64,000 nt of DNA, taken from Haloferax sulfurifontis ATCC BAA-897. GTDB taxonomy: Archaea > Halobacteriota > Halobacteria > Halobacteriales > Haloferacaceae. The first letter of the stretch is position 1. Every line of letters starts with the position of its first letter. A model generated the notes under the pieces. The model made no database searches and was not told the origin of the DNA. It was given only the letters and a program-made list of their open reading frames with translations. The stretch spans positions 1 to 64,000 of the forward strand of contig NZ_AOLM01000028.1 in NCBI RefSeq assembly GCF_000337835.1, given 5' to 3'. Both the position numbers and the translations under genes were made by a program. Below, piece by piece: positions 10,650 to 24,577 of this stretch.

Positions 10650-11652
10650 GAGGAAGGAAGATGCGGATGCGCGAGATGACTTCCGTGTGACCGCCGGAGA
10701 GCCGAGCGAGTCCGGCGAACCCGGCCCCGGCTTCGCGGTCTGTCTGACCCACGACGTGGACCGCCCGTACAAGACGTATCAGGGGCTGTACTACGCGGCG
10801 AAGTCGAATCCGGGCTACCACCTCCGGACGCTCCTCCGGCGGGAGAACCCCTACTGGCAGTTCGAGGACATCATGGCGCTGGAACGCGACCTCGGCGTGC
10901 GCTCGTCGTTCTACTTCCTCAACGAGCCGAGCCTCCTCGAAACGGGGTCGCTGTCGGACTGGCTCGAACCGAAGAACTGGGTCGAACACCTCGGACGGTA
11001 CGACCTCGATTCGGCGTCGATAGCCGACGCCGTCCGCGACCTCGACGGGGGCGGCTGGGAGGTCGGCATCCACGGCTCGTTCCGGTCGTGCGACGACTTC
11101 GACCGCCTCCGGACCGAAAAGCGCGAACTCGAAGCGGTGCTCGGCCACGAGGTCGTCGGCGGCCGCCAGCACCACCTCAAACTCGGGCCGAACACGTGGC
11201 GCTACCACCGCGAACTCGGCTTAAAATACGACGCCAGTCCCGGGTCGAGTTCGGAAAACGGCTTCCAGCACGGCTACCGGCCGTTCAGACCCTTCGGCGA
11301 CGACTTCGTCGTCTTCCCGCTGACGCTGATGGAAGTGTCGCTTCCCGACCCCGGGTCGGCGTTCGACGAGGCGTGGGCCGAATGCGAGCGCCTCCTGGAC
11401 GAGGCCGAGGCGAACGACGCCGTGATGACGGTGCTGTGGCACCCGCGGTACTTCAACGAAGACGAGTTCCCCGGCTATCGCCGGCTCTACCGCCGCATCG
11501 TCGAGCGGGCGCTCGACCGCGGCGCGTGGGTCGGCCCCGTCGCCGACTACTACCGGACGTTCCTGGCCGAGCGCGATTCCGGTGAGGAATCGAGCGAGAC
11601 GGAGACCGAAAGCGCGACCGCCGGCGGCGCGGGTCGCTCGCCGTCGCCGTAG
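10642..11652 (+). CDS. Polysaccharide deacetylase-like (CE4/NodB fold) protein
   Basis: 336 aa. Last gene of the overlapping operon. CE4-type features: FAVCLTHDVDRPY (the Asp-Asp/His-Asp region for metal and base), SSFYFLNEPSLL, GGWEVGIHGSFRSCDDFDRLRTEKRELE (an HG-type metal His), and VLWHPRYFNEDEFPGYRRLY near the end. It resembles haloarchaeal deacetylase-like proteins found in glycan loci. A deacetylase here could trim N-acetyl groups from the diacetamido sugar or the finished glycan (inference). It has no signal peptide, so it is probably cytoplasmic. The Ser/Glu/Thr-rich last 30 residues look disordered. Confidence 0.8.
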   Translation: MRERKEDADARDDFRVTAGEPSESGEPGPGFAVCLTHDVDRPYKTYQGLYYAAKSNPGYHLRTLLRRENPYWQFEDIMALERDLGVRSSFYFLNEPSLLETGSLSDWLEPKNWVEHLGRYDLDSASIADAVRDLDGGGWEVGIHGSFRSCDDFDRLRTEKRELEAVLGHEVVGGRQHHLKLGPNTWRYHRELGLKYDASPGSSSENGFQHGYRPFRPFGDDFVVFPLTLMEVSLPDPGSAFDEAWAECERLLDEAEANDAVMTVLWHPRYFNEDEFPGYRRLYRRIVERALDRGAWVGPVADYYRTFLAERDSGEESSETETESATAGGAGRSPSP

Positions 11653-18785: not shown

Positions 18786-19319
18786 ATGGGAAGCACACAG
18801 ACTGCGACGTTCGGCGGCGGCTGTTTCTGGTGCGTCGAGGCCGCGTTCAAGGAACTCGACGGCATCAGCGAGGTCACGTCGGGCTACGCCGGCGGCGAGA
18901 CGGAGAACCCGAGCTACGAACAGGTCTGTTCGGGGAACACCGGCCACGCCGAAGTCGTGCAGGTCGAGTACGACCGCGCAGTCGTCGGCTACGACGAACT
19001 GCTCGACGTGTTTTTCGCGGTCCACGACCCGACGCAACTCAACCGACAGGGGCCGGACGTGGGGACGCAGTACCGCTCTATCGTCCTGTTCCACGACGAC
19101 GAACAGGAGCGGCAGGCGTCGGCCTACATCGAGGCGCTCGACGAGGAGTACGACGACGACGTCGTCACGGAGTTGGTCCCGCTGGGGACGTTCTACGAGG
19201 CCGAAGAGTACCACCAGGACTACTTCGAGAAGAACCCCAACGACGCGTACTGCCAGTTCCACGCGAGCCCGAAAGTCGAGAAGGTCCGCGAGAAGTTCGC
19301 CGACAAACTCGCCAACTGA
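18786..19319 (+). CDS. msrA: Peptide methionine (S)-S-oxide reductase MsrA
   Basis: 177 aa. Reduces methionine-S-sulfoxide. The active-site motif GGGCFWCVEAAF is at residues 10-21, with GYAGGETENPSYEQVCSGNTGHAEVVQVEYD and FYEAEEYHQDYFEKNP further on, all standard for MsrA. It is full length. The gene faces away from the CBS gene; the first origin-type repeat begins 24 bp after its stop. Confidence 0.97.
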   Translation: MGSTQTATFGGGCFWCVEAAFKELDGISEVTSGYAGGETENPSYEQVCSGNTGHAEVVQVEYDRAVVGYDELLDVFFAVHDPTQLNRQGPDVGTQYRSIVLFHDDEQERQASAYIEALDEEYDDDVVTELVPLGTFYEAEEYHQDYFEKNPNDAYCQFHASPKVEKVREKFADKLAN

Positions 19320-19342
19320 GTCGGACGCGACCGCCGAGAGGT

Positions 19343-19362
19343 ACACCACTATGTCCGCAGTA
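19343..19362 (-). repeat. Origin-type repeat (ORB-like) 1
   Basis: Minus strand TACTGCGGACATAGTGGTGT; fits consensus AACWGCGGACANNGTGGTGT. Confidence 0.8.
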
Positions 19363-19609
19363 TCCTCGGTCGAGCGACACTGAATACCCATTTTCTTCGG
19401 TGCCGGGCGAATCGGATACCGGCCGGCGACGACGTCCGAACAGTGGAAACCGGACGGACTGTGAGGGCGGCGCGGACAGTCAACGCAGTCTCGACAGTCA
19501 GAGCAGTTCAGACGGCGCGAACAGCGGAGGCAGTCGAAACCGCCCACGCGGCGTGCACCGCTCGCGAGGTTCGCACGGTTCCCGAGTTTTAGAATCCACA
19601 GACATTCTG

Positions 19610-19638
19610 CAAATTGTAGAAATTGTGGAATCTATAGA
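19610..19638 (+). repeat. AT-rich 29-bp repeat, copy A
   Basis: Matches copy B (19780-19808) at 23 of 29 positions; shared blocks include TAGAAATT and TATAGA. Upstream of parA; partition-site or operator candidate. Confidence 0.6.
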
Positions 19639-19779
19639 CGGTCTGTACCGCGAGAGATTCGTGCACTGCGAGAACATCAAAGAGTTCTGACGATGTTCGA
19701 GAATCGGACACGTCGAACGAAGCGGAGACTGTTCAGGTCGGAACGGAGACGAGTCACTGGGCGTGAATAGGCGGTTTTA

Positions 19780-19808
19780 CAATTTTTAGAAATTTTGAAA
19801 ATTATAGA
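19780..19808 (+). repeat. AT-rich 29-bp repeat, copy B
   Basis: Second copy, followed by GAATGTATAGAATGTAGAA, itself a short direct repeat. A shorter related stretch, CAATTTGTGGAAATC, is at 19968-19982. Confidence 0.6.
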
Positions 19809-19955
19809 ATGTATAGAATGTAGAAGCAGTCCTAACGGTTCAAAAGTCGTGGATAAAATTATGTGGCACGCCGCGGAAGGTCAGTTCGAGCCCTCAAATG
19901 TCCGCACAGCTCGCAATTCAAACGGAGTTTGCACCGCTCAGACAGCAGACACAGC

Positions 19956-19968
19956 GTACACTGTGTAC
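19956..19968. promoter_or_regulatory. Palindrome upstream of parA, candidate operator
   Basis: GTACAC-T-GTGTAC, a perfect 13-bp palindrome ending 37 bp before the parA start, directly followed by the partial AT-rich repeat. ParA-type operons are often autoregulated; the binding protein here is unknown. Confidence 0.45.
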
Positions 19969-20005
19969 AATTTGTGGAAATCGCTCCTCGACGGGGGGCC
20001 GATAA

Positions 20006-20830
20006 GTGTCGCGAGCCGTGAGCGTCTCCCTCCAGAAGGGAGGGGTTGGAAAGACGACGATTGCCATCAACCTCGCGGACGCGCTCGCCGCGCGGGGCAA
20101 CGACGTGCTGTTGGTCGACCTCGACCAGCAGGGGAACGCGACCGAGGGCGTCGGACTGAAAGACGCCTACGAGTCGTCGGAGCCGAACATCGGCGACGTG
20201 CTGACCGACGACGACCCCATCGACGTACACGAGGTGATACGCGACCGCGAGAGCTTCGACGTGCTTCCCTCGCACGTCGACCTCGACGACATCGAAGACC
20301 GCGTTCGGAACTCGACGTTCGGCGTGCTCTGGGTCCGCCGCCGAATCGTCGACCCGCTTCTCGGCGACGACTACGACTACATCGTCATCGACTCGCCACC
20401 GAGCCTCGGCCCGCTGTCCGACGCGGCGCTCATCGGGACCGGGAACGTCGTCGTCCCGCTCCTCATGAGCGAACCGAGCGTGAGCGGCTTCGAGCGGATG
20501 TTCGAACAGCAGATCGGGCCGATTCGCCGCGAGGTCGACCTCGACATCCTCGCCATCGTCCCGAACGACCTCACGGGGAACAACGAGGAAAAACGCATCA
20601 TCCGCGACCTCGAAGACTCCCCCTTCGAGCGGTTCATCCCGCCGTTCGCCCACTCGGACCTGTTCGACGACCCCGACTCGAAGGGACCGGGAATCAGACA
20701 CCGAATCGCGTTCAGTCGCGCCTGGCGCGACGGGAAGACGCTCCGGGAGTACGACCCGTCGAACGACATGTTGGACCGACTCGACCAGCTCGCGGAAATC
20801 GTCGAGCGCGGAGGGACGAACGATGCCTAA
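20006..20830 (+). CDS. parA: ParA/Soj-family partition ATPase
   Basis: 274 aa. Deviant Walker A ATPase for segregation of the replicon. Seen: SVSLQKGGVGKTTIAINLADALA (Walker A at about 11-18 with the signature Lys), LLVDLDQQGNATEG, and YIVIDSPPSLGPLSDAAL. The GTG at 20006 is chosen because it puts the Walker A at the usual distance; a GTG at 20018 is possible. The stop (TAA at 20828) overlaps the next gene's ATG (20823), so the two are translated together. Repeats and a palindrome immediately upstream suggest autoregulation or a centromere. Position beside Orc1/Cdc6 marks an origin-partition module. Confidence 0.95.
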   Translation: MSRAVSVSLQKGGVGKTTIAINLADALAARGNDVLLVDLDQQGNATEGVGLKDAYESSEPNIGDVLTDDDPIDVHEVIRDRESFDVLPSHVDLDDIEDRVRNSTFGVLWVRRRIVDPLLGDDYDYIVIDSPPSLGPLSDAALIGTGNVVVPLLMSEPSVSGFERMFEQQIGPIRREVDLDILAIVPNDLTGNNEEKRIIRDLEDSPFERFIPPFAHSDLFDDPDSKGPGIRHRIAFSRAWRDGKTLREYDPSNDMLDRLDQLAEIVERGGTNDA

Positions 20831-21404
20831 GGAGAACCGATTCGCCGGCCTCGGCGAGGCGATGGAATCTGAGTCAGAGTCCGACGACGAGGAGATTCCG
20901 GACGAAACCGCGTCCGACGCGCCCGAGACGTCAGATGCCGAACCGGTGGTCGAGTCTGAGACCGCGGACGAATCCGAGTCGGAAGGCGCGAGCGAGGAAT
21001 CGGATGGCGGCGACGAGAAGCAGGGTGACGGCGAAAGTGACGAAGGCGAAGAGCCAGACGAAAGCGACGAACTAGGCGAAAGCGAGAAACTCGACGAGGC
21101 CAAGGAAGCGGCCGAGTCGGACACGGGAGAAGAGAGCGCAGTCGCCGACGAGACGAAACAAGCGACGAAAGCGGAGGGCGGCCCGGCGTTCGAGTTCGAG
21201 GCGACGACCGCAAAGAGCATCTACGTCCGAACCGCGACGCTCGACCGACTGGACGACGCCGAGTTCGAAGTCGAGTCGCTCCTCCGCCGGGAACACGACG
21301 TGCGCGACCTGACCGGCCGCGAGTTCCACGACGCACTCGTCCGCGTCGCCGCCGAGTACCCCGAGGAAATCGCCGACGCCGTCCTCGAAACCCGCGACGA
21401 GTGA
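20823..21404 (+). CDS. Acidic ParA-partner protein, putative ParB-like adaptor
   Basis: 193 aa. Residues 1-125 are a long Glu/Asp/Ser-rich, probably disordered region (for example SESESDDEEIPDE). The C-terminal 65 residues are ordered: FEFEATTAKSIYVRTATLDRLDDAEFEVESLLRREHDVRDLTGREFHDALVRVAAEYPEEIADAVLE. No ParB ParBc or HTH motif is recognisable. Overlap with parA by 8 bp and the short basic-acidic C-domain suggest it fills the ParB/adaptor role, in which the C-domain may bind DNA or dimerise. Function is inferred from position only. Confidence 0.75.
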   Translation: MPKENRFAGLGEAMESESESDDEEIPDETASDAPETSDAEPVVESETADESESEGASEESDGGDEKQGDGESDEGEEPDESDELGESEKLDEAKEAAESDTGEESAVADETKQATKAEGGPAFEFEATTAKSIYVRTATLDRLDDAEFEVESLLRREHDVRDLTGREFHDALVRVAAEYPEEIADAVLETRDE

Positions 21405-21687: not shown

Positions 21688-21707
21688 ACACCAGCATGTC
21701 CGCTGTT
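21688..21707 (-). repeat. Origin-type repeat 4, variant
   Basis: Minus strand AACAGCGGACATGCTGGTGT; one departure from the consensus. Confidence 0.7.
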
Positions 21708-21770
21708 ATCCCGATAGAAGCCACGAATAGAGGCGCTATCGCTGAGATAGGACGTCGTGGACGGATTGGT

Positions 21771-21790
21771 ACACCACAATGTCCGCTGTT
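21771..21790 (-). repeat. Origin-type repeat 5
   Basis: Minus strand AACAGCGGACATTGTGGTGT; full match. Confidence 0.85.
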
Positions 21791-21815
21791 CTAGTAAGCG
21801 GCGAAAATAGCCGAT

Positions 21816-21835
21816 TACCGCGGACATGGTGGTGT
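21816..21835 (+). repeat. Origin-type repeat 6
   Basis: TACCGCGGACATGGTGGTGT; core GCGGACA and GTGGTGT intact. It forms a back-to-back pair with repeat 5. Confidence 0.8.
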
Positions 21836-22032
21836 TCAAAGCGGTCGGAAACTGGTCTCAAAGAGAACTCGGCGCGTCCGACGAACGCTCGTTTCGAGAC
21901 GCGCGTTACGAGAGTTACTCAATTAGTAGTCAGTTCCGCGCGGAACAGGCAGTGTCACAACGCGGGGGAGAACCGTTTTGTCAGTCCGTAACGCGCAGGA
22001 GAGCACCGCTCCGGCGACCGGACGCGAAACCG

Positions 22033-22052
22033 ACACCACGATGTCCGCAGTA
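22033..22052 (-). repeat. Origin-type repeat 7
   Basis: Minus strand TACTGCGGACATCGTGGTGT, 18 bp beyond the orc1 stop codon. Confidence 0.8.
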
Positions 22053-22069: not shown

Positions 22070-23320
22070 CTACTGCTCGATGAAGTCGTCGAGCGTGCTC
22101 GTCTTCTCTCCGTCGAGGAAGGGTTCGACCGTCTCGTGGACGCCCACGAGTTCGATGGTATCGCGCATGGCCGAGACGATGAGCCCGACGTCCATATCGA
22201 GGGCGTACTCGCGGTACGTTCCGCCGCGACGGCCCTCGTTTCGCTCGGTGACCGAGACGATGCCGAGCATCGCGAGTTCGCTGAGGTGGTCGCGCATCCG
22301 TCGCGGGACGAGCGGGTCGCGGTTGGCGAGTTCGGTAAAGCGGGTGTAGCGGGGGCGAACGTCGCGGGAGCGAATCGGCGTCTCGTCTTCCAGTTCGAGC
22401 GTCAAAAGCGAGTAGAGGACGAGATGGCCGTGTTCGGTCAGACCGTTGATGCCCTCTTTGATGCGGCCGCGTTCGAGGGCGCGCCGACCGCGCTTGACGT
22501 GTTCTTCCTCGATGCGGTCGGTGTCGTCGTCGCGGGCCAAGTCGCCGGCTTTCATCAACAGGTCGATGGACTGGCGGGCGTCACCGGCGTCTTTCGCGCC
22601 GTAGGCGGCACAGAGCGGAATCACCTCGTCGGCGAGCACGCCCTCGCGGAACGCCACTCTGGCGCGCTGTTCGAGGATGGCGCGGAGGTTCTTCGCGTTG
22701 TACGCGGGGAAGTGAATCTCCTGTTCGCACAGGGAGCTTTTGACCTTCGGCGAGAGGTCGTCGCGGAACGAGAAGTCGTTGGAGATACCGATGAGGCCGA
22801 CCTTCGCCGCGTCGAGGTTCCCGTTAGCCCGCGCTCGCGGGAGTTGATAGAGGATGCTGTCGTCGTTGACGTGGTCGATTTCGTCGAGGACGATGATTAT
22901 CGTCCCGCCGCAGTCGTCGAGTTCCTGCCAGAGCATCTCGTAGACGGAGCCGAGCGGGTAGCCCGTCGTGCTGATCTGGTTCGACTCCGACCGGAACTCG
23001 TTGACGAGTCGAGTGGCGATCTGATACGAGCTCGTGAGTCCGTCGCAGTTCAGAAAGACGACGGTGAGGTGGATGTCGTCGTAGTGGCTCGCGTCCTCGC
23101 GGAGGTGACCGAGTAGGTACCGCGACGCGGCGGTCTTGCCGACGCCGGTCTTCCCGTAGAGGAAGATGTTGTTGGGCTGTTCGCCGTTGATGACCGGCTG
23201 GAGTGCGGCCTGAAACGTGCGGAGTTCTTCGTCACGCCCCACGAGTTCCTCGGGCTGGTAGTCCTCCCGGAGGGCGTCCCTGTCCCGATAAATCTCGGTG
23301 TCCCGCTCGAATAGGGGCAT
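22070..23320 (-). CDS. orc1: Orc1/Cdc6-family replication initiator
   Basis: 416 aa. AAA+ initiator that binds origin repeats and loads MCM. Seen: Walker A YGKTGVGKTAASRYLL (about 55-70), Walker B IIIVLDEIDHV, sensor-1 region LIGISNDFSFRDDL, the ELVGRDEEL box near residue 26, sensor-2 GDARQSIDLL and a C-terminal winged helix. The start ATG at 23318-23320 gives the usual MPLFERDTEIYRD N-terminus; the frame extends 12 codons upstream without support. A TATATAAA box on the minus strand (23386-23393) and two origin-type repeats lie in its promoter, suggesting autoregulation. Confidence 0.97.
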   Translation of the reverse strand: MPLFERDTEIYRDRDALREDYQPEELVGRDEELRTFQAALQPVINGEQPNNIFLYGKTGVGKTAASRYLLGHLREDASHYDDIHLTVVFLNCDGLTSSYQIATRLVNEFRSESNQISTTGYPLGSVYEMLWQELDDCGGTIIIVLDEIDHVNDDSILYQLPRARANGNLDAAKVGLIGISNDFSFRDDLSPKVKSSLCEQEIHFPAYNAKNLRAILEQRARVAFREGVLADEVIPLCAAYGAKDAGDARQSIDLLMKAGDLARDDDTDRIEEEHVKRGRRALERGRIKEGINGLTEHGHLVLYSLLTLELEDETPIRSRDVRPRYTRFTELANRDPLVPRRMRDHLSELAMLGIVSVTERNEGRRGGTYREYALDMDVGLIVSAMRDTIELVGVHETVEPFLDGEKTSTLDDFIEQ

Positions 23321-23351
23321 ACAACCACGGTTCGACCACTTCATTGATAAA

Positions 23352-23378
23352 ACCACCGCGTCCGCAGTGTCCGCTGTT
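23352..23378 (-). repeat. Origin-type repeat 8, composite, in the orc1 promoter
   Basis: Two overlapping half-sites: minus strand AACAGCGGACA fused to CTGCGGACGCGGTGGT. It lies between the orc1 TATA box and the start codon. Confidence 0.65.
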
Positions 23379-23980: not shown

Positions 23981-24183
23981 TGTAGGGGAACCATCGAGAC
24001 TCTCGTCGCACCCGCCCTCGCTCTCAGCGACGACCCAGCGATGCCCGACCTCTAACATGACTACCCTCACATGGCTCTCCGCTAACATGATTCGCCACGA
24101 ACGAGACCTCCAACGGAACTCGGACGACCCGTGTGGGTTGTACCCATGAACCACTCTCCCTGCTACCGGCCAATCTGTCGAAA

Positions 24184-24203
24184 AACAGCGGACAACGTGG
24201 TGT
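24184..24203 (+). repeat. Origin-type repeat 13
   Basis: AACAGCGGACAACGTGGTGT; identical to repeat 2. About 90 bp before the eIF1A start. Confidence 0.85.
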
Positions 24204-24292
24204 TCGAAACTACAGTCTCCCAGTTTCAACGCCGTGACATTTGGTATCACGAGTATCCGATAAGTTATCCGTCTCCGTCCCCGAGCAAGACT

Positions 24293-24577
24293 GTGAGTGA
24301 AAATCAAGGGCGTCGAAACCTTCGAATGCCCAACGACAACGAGCTGTTCGCAGTCGTCACAGAGCACAACGGTGGCAACCACGTCCGAATCCGCTGTGAA
24401 GACGGAAAGAACCGAATGGGCCGCATCCCCGGCCGCATGAAGTACCGCACGTGGATTAACGAGGGCGACGTCGTGCTCGTCGAACCGTGGGACTGGCAGG
24501 ACGAGAAAGCCAACATCGAATGGCGTTACACCGGCGAGGACGCGGACCAGCTTCGGCGCGAAGGCCACATCCAGTAA
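24293..24577 (+). CDS. eif1A: Translation initiation factor aIF1A
   Basis: 94 aa from GTG at 24293. OB-fold factor that binds the small ribosomal subunit A site during initiation. [79 protein letters not shown] is the family core over its whole length. The GTG start is chosen because archaeal aIF1A begins with about 10 residues before RMPNDNE; an ATG at 24326 would cut them off. ATAAGTTAT lies about 30 nt upstream, consistent with a leaderless transcript. It is the housekeeping neighbour of the origin. Confidence 0.95.

Follow-up and report, generated by a model that had tools for sequence, protein, structure and literature searches.

A 9-bp palindromic repeat array upstream of a haloarchaeal megaplasmid parA operon, a probable partition site

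Type Ib partition systems carry their centromeres upstream of the operon, and in parC of plasmid R1 the centromere is split, with the promoter lying between two groups of repeats (PMC5016525). In pSM19035, a small binding protein coats a row of adjoining repeats, and activation of ParA takes a minimum of four repeats in a row (PMC9499535). The 2016 review of archaeal segregation is detailed on SegAB and AspA-ParBA, both from Sulfolobales (PMC5120986). Type Ib-like partition as such is already known; a search of the literature, mainly of its openly accessible part, returned no description in haloarchaea of a 9-bp degenerate palindromic array, of its satellites or of the partner protein family discussed below, and these three appear to be undescribed. 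Haloarchaea are polyploid and carry several megaplasmids. In a stretch of 64,000 nucleotides from Haloferax sulfurifontis ATCC BAA-897 (hereafter the window), part of a contig of 282,573 bases, we identified an array of short palindromic units at 19429-19984, upstream of a parA gene. A type-Ib-like ParA system of this haloarchaeal megaplasmid probably uses the array as its centromere (parS), and the protein predicted to bind it is the partner encoded downstream of parA.

The parA gene (20006-20830, + strand) encodes a 274 aa Walker ATPase (Pfam AAA_31, E 2.6e-36) with a deviant Walker A motif, KGGVGKTT, at residue 11. Its GTG start aligns with ATG in relatives, and the protein begins at the Walker motif, like the ParA proteins of type Ib systems, without an N-terminal DNA-binding domain. 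Directly downstream and overlapping parA by 8 bases is the gene of the ParA partner (20823-21404, + strand; 193 aa), a presumed centromere-binding protein that was studied by alignments and AlphaFold2; the same layout is found in most relatives. Features of type Ib systems present at the locus are the small ParA, the partner downstream in the operon, and the iterated repeats upstream of the operon. The partner has a conserved N-terminal motif that includes an arginine (ENRFAGLGEAM), followed by an acidic low-complexity linker that varies in length; the C-terminal domain (KSIYVR...LTGREFHDALVRVAAEYPEEI) is again conserved. The 193 aa sequence has no match in Pfam or NCBIfam, and a type Ia or chromosomal ParB (CTPase) was rejected as the partner lacks a match in either database to the ParB/Spo0J N-domain plus HTH. 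A profile of the partner searched against PDB sequences gave no relevant match at E values up to 1. In an AlphaFold2 monomer model, the C-terminal piece forms three helices (22-43, 50-61 and 65-77; mean pLDDT 85), preceded by KSIYVR as an extended segment of low confidence, with no ribbon-helix-helix strand. Homology-based searches for a ribbon-helix-helix (Pfam, NCBIfam, the PDB profile, Foldseek, VIA-align and one CopG-like profile) returned nothing usable, and matches to histone-like helices (Z 3.2) were weak and set aside as generic. A ribbon-helix-helix fold is plausible for the partner, given that the alternation within KSIYVR and the LTGREFHDAL that follows look like such a fold.

A preliminary description of the region, made from the sequence of the window, had noted two 29-bp repeats, a partial third and a palindrome in a low-GC island before parA. 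These elements are real: the 29-mers at 19610-19638 and 19780-19808 are identical at 23 of 29 positions (among 200 shuffled versions of these 373 bases, no pair did better than 20 of 29), a partial third copy is found at position 19968, and the palindrome GTACACTGTGTAC occupies 19956-19968. However, they are a mere fragment of a larger array of 9-bp units, which starts about 180 bp further upstream, at 19429. The six highest peaks in the autocorrelation of base identity across 19320-20005 are at lags 9, 18, 36, 27, 45 and 54, and the neighbouring coding regions show the usual multiples of three. A coding origin of the 9-base period was rejected, as the spacer lacks lags 3, 6 and 12; a period-9 signal inside the partner gene was set aside as codon repetition of the acidic linker. 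A cyclic HMM of nine states, with 19136-20010 as training sequence, gained 140.6 nats over composition, compared with 13-20.5 nats in dinucleotide shuffles, and its Viterbi parse resolves 19429-19984 into three clusters with 34, 8 and 9 palindromic 9-bp units, 51 in all. A five-unit consensus, allowing up to 2 mismatches, matched the 64-kb window 22 times against an expectation of 0.05, with all matches within 19501-19984.

Cluster 1 (19429-19736), supported by both the parse and the five-unit matches, consists of 34 contiguous units (19429-19734), GC-rich in its left part and AT-rich at 19591-19644. The 29-mers correspond to three consecutive units plus edges, the first belonging to cluster 1 and the second to cluster 2 (19779-19850), which has 8 AT-rich units. 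Cluster 3 (19897-19984) contains 9 units (19904-19984), one of which (19958-19966) is the palindrome of the preliminary description, its symmetry running on into the neighbouring units. Clusters, repeats and palindrome alike are without assigned strand. The array is interrupted by an unstranded block at 19854-19896 (GTCGTGGATAAAATTATGTGG...). A MAFFT alignment of seven close Haloferax orthologs shows strong conservation of this block, which is a candidate for the parA promoter or for the site of another protein. The sequence at 19892-19905, after this block, is CCTCAAATGTCCGC and has ATGTCCGC in common with the ORB-like sites described below. A promoter, a half-ORB and another type of binding site are all candidates for the region 19854-19905; sigma-70 and terminator scans are uninformative in archaea.

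Joint training over 17 loci gave RVRMNKYBY as the consensus of the unit. The unit matrix correlates with its own reverse complement at 0.93 at one centre and at no more than 0.35 elsewhere, and thus each unit is a palindrome in its own right. Independent training on five single loci, some of them from outside the genus, gave the same motif back (correlation 0.87-0.97), and within the window the core RMNKY is matched exactly by 46 of the 51 units. GC-rich units (GAACAGCGG, GGACAGTCA) and AT-rich units (AGAAATTGT) follow one rule, the former falling outside the AT-rich repeats of the preliminary description. The low-GC island itself is borne out (GC of 0.51 in 19501-20000 versus approximately 0.62-0.66 on either side), and given that one rule governs both kinds of unit it is a by-product of which permitted bases are used.

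This composition is relevant to the idea that the array serves replication, either as an AT-rich unwinding element or as iterons for Orc1/Cdc6 or a replication regulator. Its surroundings lend this idea some weight, since the array sits between ORB-like sites (19345; 21690-22048) and orc1 follows 1.2 kb past parA and its partner. The units are nevertheless unlike the ORB-like sites, in agreement with the earlier claim that the repeats differ from those of the origin, and the GC-rich units keep the pattern, which means that the constraint is not one of melting. Moreover, comparable arrays are found beside parA without an annotated orc1/cdc6 nearby (pHS1 and a Halocatena plasmid), satellites of the array lie far from the origin, at distances between tens of kb and more than 200 kb, and the core of the unit changes with the partner paralog, as detailed below. 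We therefore regard a replication function as very improbable. The ORB-like sites (ACCACNATGTCCGC; 19345, 21690, 21773, 21820(-), 22035 and 24711(-)) flank parA and its partner and surround orc1/cdc6 (22070-23356). Together with this gene they likely form the replication origin of the megaplasmid, in which the par locus is embedded. An eIF-1A-like protein is encoded at 24131-24577, adjacent to orc1 and to the presumed origin.

The array is under selective constraint. In the alignment of seven close orthologs, indels within cluster 1 are 9, 36, 54, 63 and 90 bp long, apart from isolated single-base gaps in two sequences, and indels of other sizes are located at cluster ends or outside clusters. 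The HMM phase agrees between species at 10,724 aligned positions and disagrees at 17. Substitutions preserve base class (96% A/G at position 2, 95% C/T at position 6, mostly G/T at position 5 and an enrichment in A/C at position 3), a pattern that carries some circularity from the assignment of phase with the same motif, small in view of the phase agreement. As the class rule differs at each position of the nine-base cycle, mutation bias does not account for this pattern. It could be argued that tandem slippage alone gives indels in multiples of 9, and that the 9-bp pitch is its by-product, with no protein reading the array; one ortholog (L031) indeed has a 36-bp tandem duplication. However, the units have diverged too far for slippage to be recent, and yet 46 of them keep RMNKY. 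Slippage also cannot make G/T and A/C transversions that stay within the base class of a single position, nor can it make conserved satellites at matching places or replicon specificity, and we find it extremely unlikely as the whole explanation.

Conservation among relatives, on which the preliminary description had staked its reading, is found well beyond the genus. The model trained on the window only, applied unchanged upstream of orthologous parA, gains 90-160 nats in 14 of 14 other Haloferax genomes, 58 nats in another genus of the same family, 68 and 78 nats in two other families, and 15 nats in one further relative. Across 42 named haloarchaeal loci, the gain is at least 15 nats in 31, 7-14 nats in five (with about 7 units each) and absent in six, although these locus sets share species and the counts are not phylogenetically independent. 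The short arrays of some orthologs (about 7 units, in Halolamina and Haloparvum) and the few relatives with none count against the centromere reading. Control tiles from the same loci (n=377) have a median gain of -4.0, the few high values being an N-run artefact of encoding in L080 (352 nats) and unexplained tiles in L083-L086 and L096. Sequences reversed without complementing score a median of -1.8 and never exceed 15.6. In Halorussus ruber (L086), the array in the 500 bp upstream of parA shows a strong higher-order period of 18 bp (z 14.7 at lag 18), as though two types of unit alternated, and there is more array-like signal downstream of the operon.

Seven other parA/partner types carry 9-bp palindromic arrays of their own. 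These have different cores and all score above shuffles, and a period scan of them gives the highest gain at 9 rather than at 7, 8, 10 or 11. Partners with the strand FYAR are associated with the arrays of Halobacterium pHS1 (AKYMWKRMT) and pHTUR02 (STRYWRYAS), a partner with LYVL with that of a second Haloferax system (RRATWATYY), and IYPR/IYPH partners with two arrays (AMCTWAGKT and WSCTWAGSW) that have the core CTWAG in common. The window model found no array at the second Haloferax parA system, but unbiased training recovers one there; its orthologs in other Haloferax have a 9-bp array with the core ATWAT. A second parA/partner operon is present in the genome of the window (G000:C8, approximately 152080-152430; locus L050), with KGGIGKST in ParA and HKALYVL as the partner strand. 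No significant array was detected at the ParA locus of PhiCh1. At the sequence level, a constant pitch with a core that varies with the partner is how a set of partition specificities would be expected to look.

The operon is found on large plasmids in H. lucentense (285 kb), H. gibbonsii (323-336 kb) and H. mediterranei (pHME505, 505 kb), and also on Natronorubrum and Haloterrigena plasmids of 160-214 kb. Genome-wide statements made here are from pattern searches, with the full 283-kb contig scanned by HMM as well. In the whole 3.8-Mb genome, a three-unit pattern matched only the 282,573-bp contig, at 6 places (0 for the backward control): the main array and satellites at 92.8, 115.7, 121.4, 223.8 and 237.0 kb, all of which except 237.0 kb were also returned by the HMM scan. 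The pattern matched in 15 of 15 Haloferax genomes, and the parA contig accounts for nearly all of the matches listed. One genome (G008) has two satellite-like arrays on a contig without parA (C15:52813 and 56741), which may reflect replicon rearrangement. pHME505 of H. mediterranei has matches at 188, 235, 339, 389 and 430 kb, of which four are satellites; Halorussus, Halogeometricum limi and Natronorubrum thiooxidans have one satellite each, and most other Natrialbaceae have the main cluster only. Satellites are rows of 3-7 boxes in intergenic DNA, and those at 121.4 and 223.8 kb of the H. sulfurifontis contig, as well as the one at 430.5 kb of pHME505, are between convergent genes. In alignments they appear as conserved units inside spacers that are no longer alignable. 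The pHME505 site at 430.5 kb (NZ_CP039140.1, 430530-430563; locus L182) is about 0.9 kb from genes annotated as RdfA (rod-determining factor) and an archaea-specific SMC-related protein.

The satellites are hard to reconcile with the suggestion that the array serves solely as an operator for parA and its partner, bound by a repressor (perhaps the partner) and without a role as centromere. Sites in intergenic gaps, including convergent 3'-3' ones, make no sense for a parA operator, and 51 units extending to about 580 bp upstream are far above what an operator needs. On the other hand, cluster 3 is positioned to act as an operator, stopping about 20 bp before the parA start, and type Ib centromere-binding proteins double as repressors (PMC5016525). 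We consider a purely regulatory array unlikely. The comparative evidence instead supports a partition site that is distinct from the origin repeats and predicted to bind the acidic ParA partner, because the array is conserved, travels with parA/partner operons, has a core that differs between partner paralogs, and has its satellites on the replicon of the operon.

In the proposed mechanism, one dimer of the partner (20823-21404) would occupy each 9-bp box, and clusters 1-3 would thereby become a continuous, regular row of protein on the DNA. The N-terminal peptide of the partner, held on its acidic linker, would contact nucleoid-bound ParA and activate its ATPase, with the result that plasmid copies would be pulled or positioned. 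The parA-proximal cluster may also repress the operon, the array doubling as operator; satellite rows may be extra, weaker partition sites, and the block at 19854-19896 could be a promoter between repeat groups, as in the split parC of R1. Points against this model are that the partner lacks a detectable relative of known function and that its AlphaFold2 monomer model shows three helices but no ribbon-helix-helix strand. We also put forward, as a tentative and rather doubtful extension, a haloarchaeal partition class that reads palindromic arrays of 9-bp pitch through an uncharacterised domain other than the ribbon-helix-helix. In such a class, the KSIYVR-like strand would switch the core and so set incompatibility groups, and satellites would make the whole megaplasmid a multi-site partition substrate. 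For replicon segregation in haloarchaea, the locus offers a concrete putative centromere with a candidate binder that belongs to no named family, along with a predicted specificity code (unit core versus partner strand) and dispersed sites. Megaplasmid segregation and incompatibility thus become directly testable, with Haloferax having good genetics.

Several described systems resemble the array in part. The met boxes of MetJ (AGACGTCT) are contiguous palindromic 8-bp sites, each bound by one ribbon-helix-helix dimer, and resemble units such as AGACGGTCT; MetJ is a bacterial repressor of methionine genes acting at 2-5 boxes, and the likeness is one of analogy only. The binder of the pCXC100 centromere is a ribbon-helix-helix protein of solved structure, the pitch of its repeats is reportedly also 9 bp, and we know of no satellite sites for it. 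This bacterial type Ib centromere likewise has repeats upstream of parA/parB, all of them direct (Yin 2006 and Huang 2011, both cited by PMC5016525), a likeness that need not mean homology to the present array. Secondary replicons of Deinococcus radiodurans also have a repeat array upstream of parAB with a role in maintenance; these bacterial arrays have other repeats and are also reported to be origin-like (PMC7671480). SegAB of Sulfolobales (PMC12284271) similarly combines an archaeal ParA with a small partner, SegB binding DNA as is presumed here, and has palindromic sites both clustered close to the operon and dispersed over the replicon, with a symmetric purine-N-pyrimidine core (AGA S TCT for SegB). 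SegB sites are, however, single 13-bp palindromes of the chromosome, mostly inside genes, unlike the contiguous, intergenic 9-bp arrays of the megaplasmid. The profile search of PDB sequences, an indirect comparison, brought out no sequence similarity between the partner and SegB. The parS of pSM19035 (delta/omega, type Ib; PMC9499535) has near-invariant, non-palindromic 7-bp boxes (WATCACW), 7-10 per site, whereas the boxes here are 9-bp, palindromic and strongly degenerate, with up to 34 in a row, and their presumed binder is without sequence similarity to a known family. Both systems have a small ParA, contiguous short boxes at a fixed pitch, each taken by one small dimer (as proposed here), and several sites per plasmid, in pSM19035 including promoter regions; the N-terminal peptide of the binder activates ParA in pSM19035 and may do the same in the haloarchaeal system.
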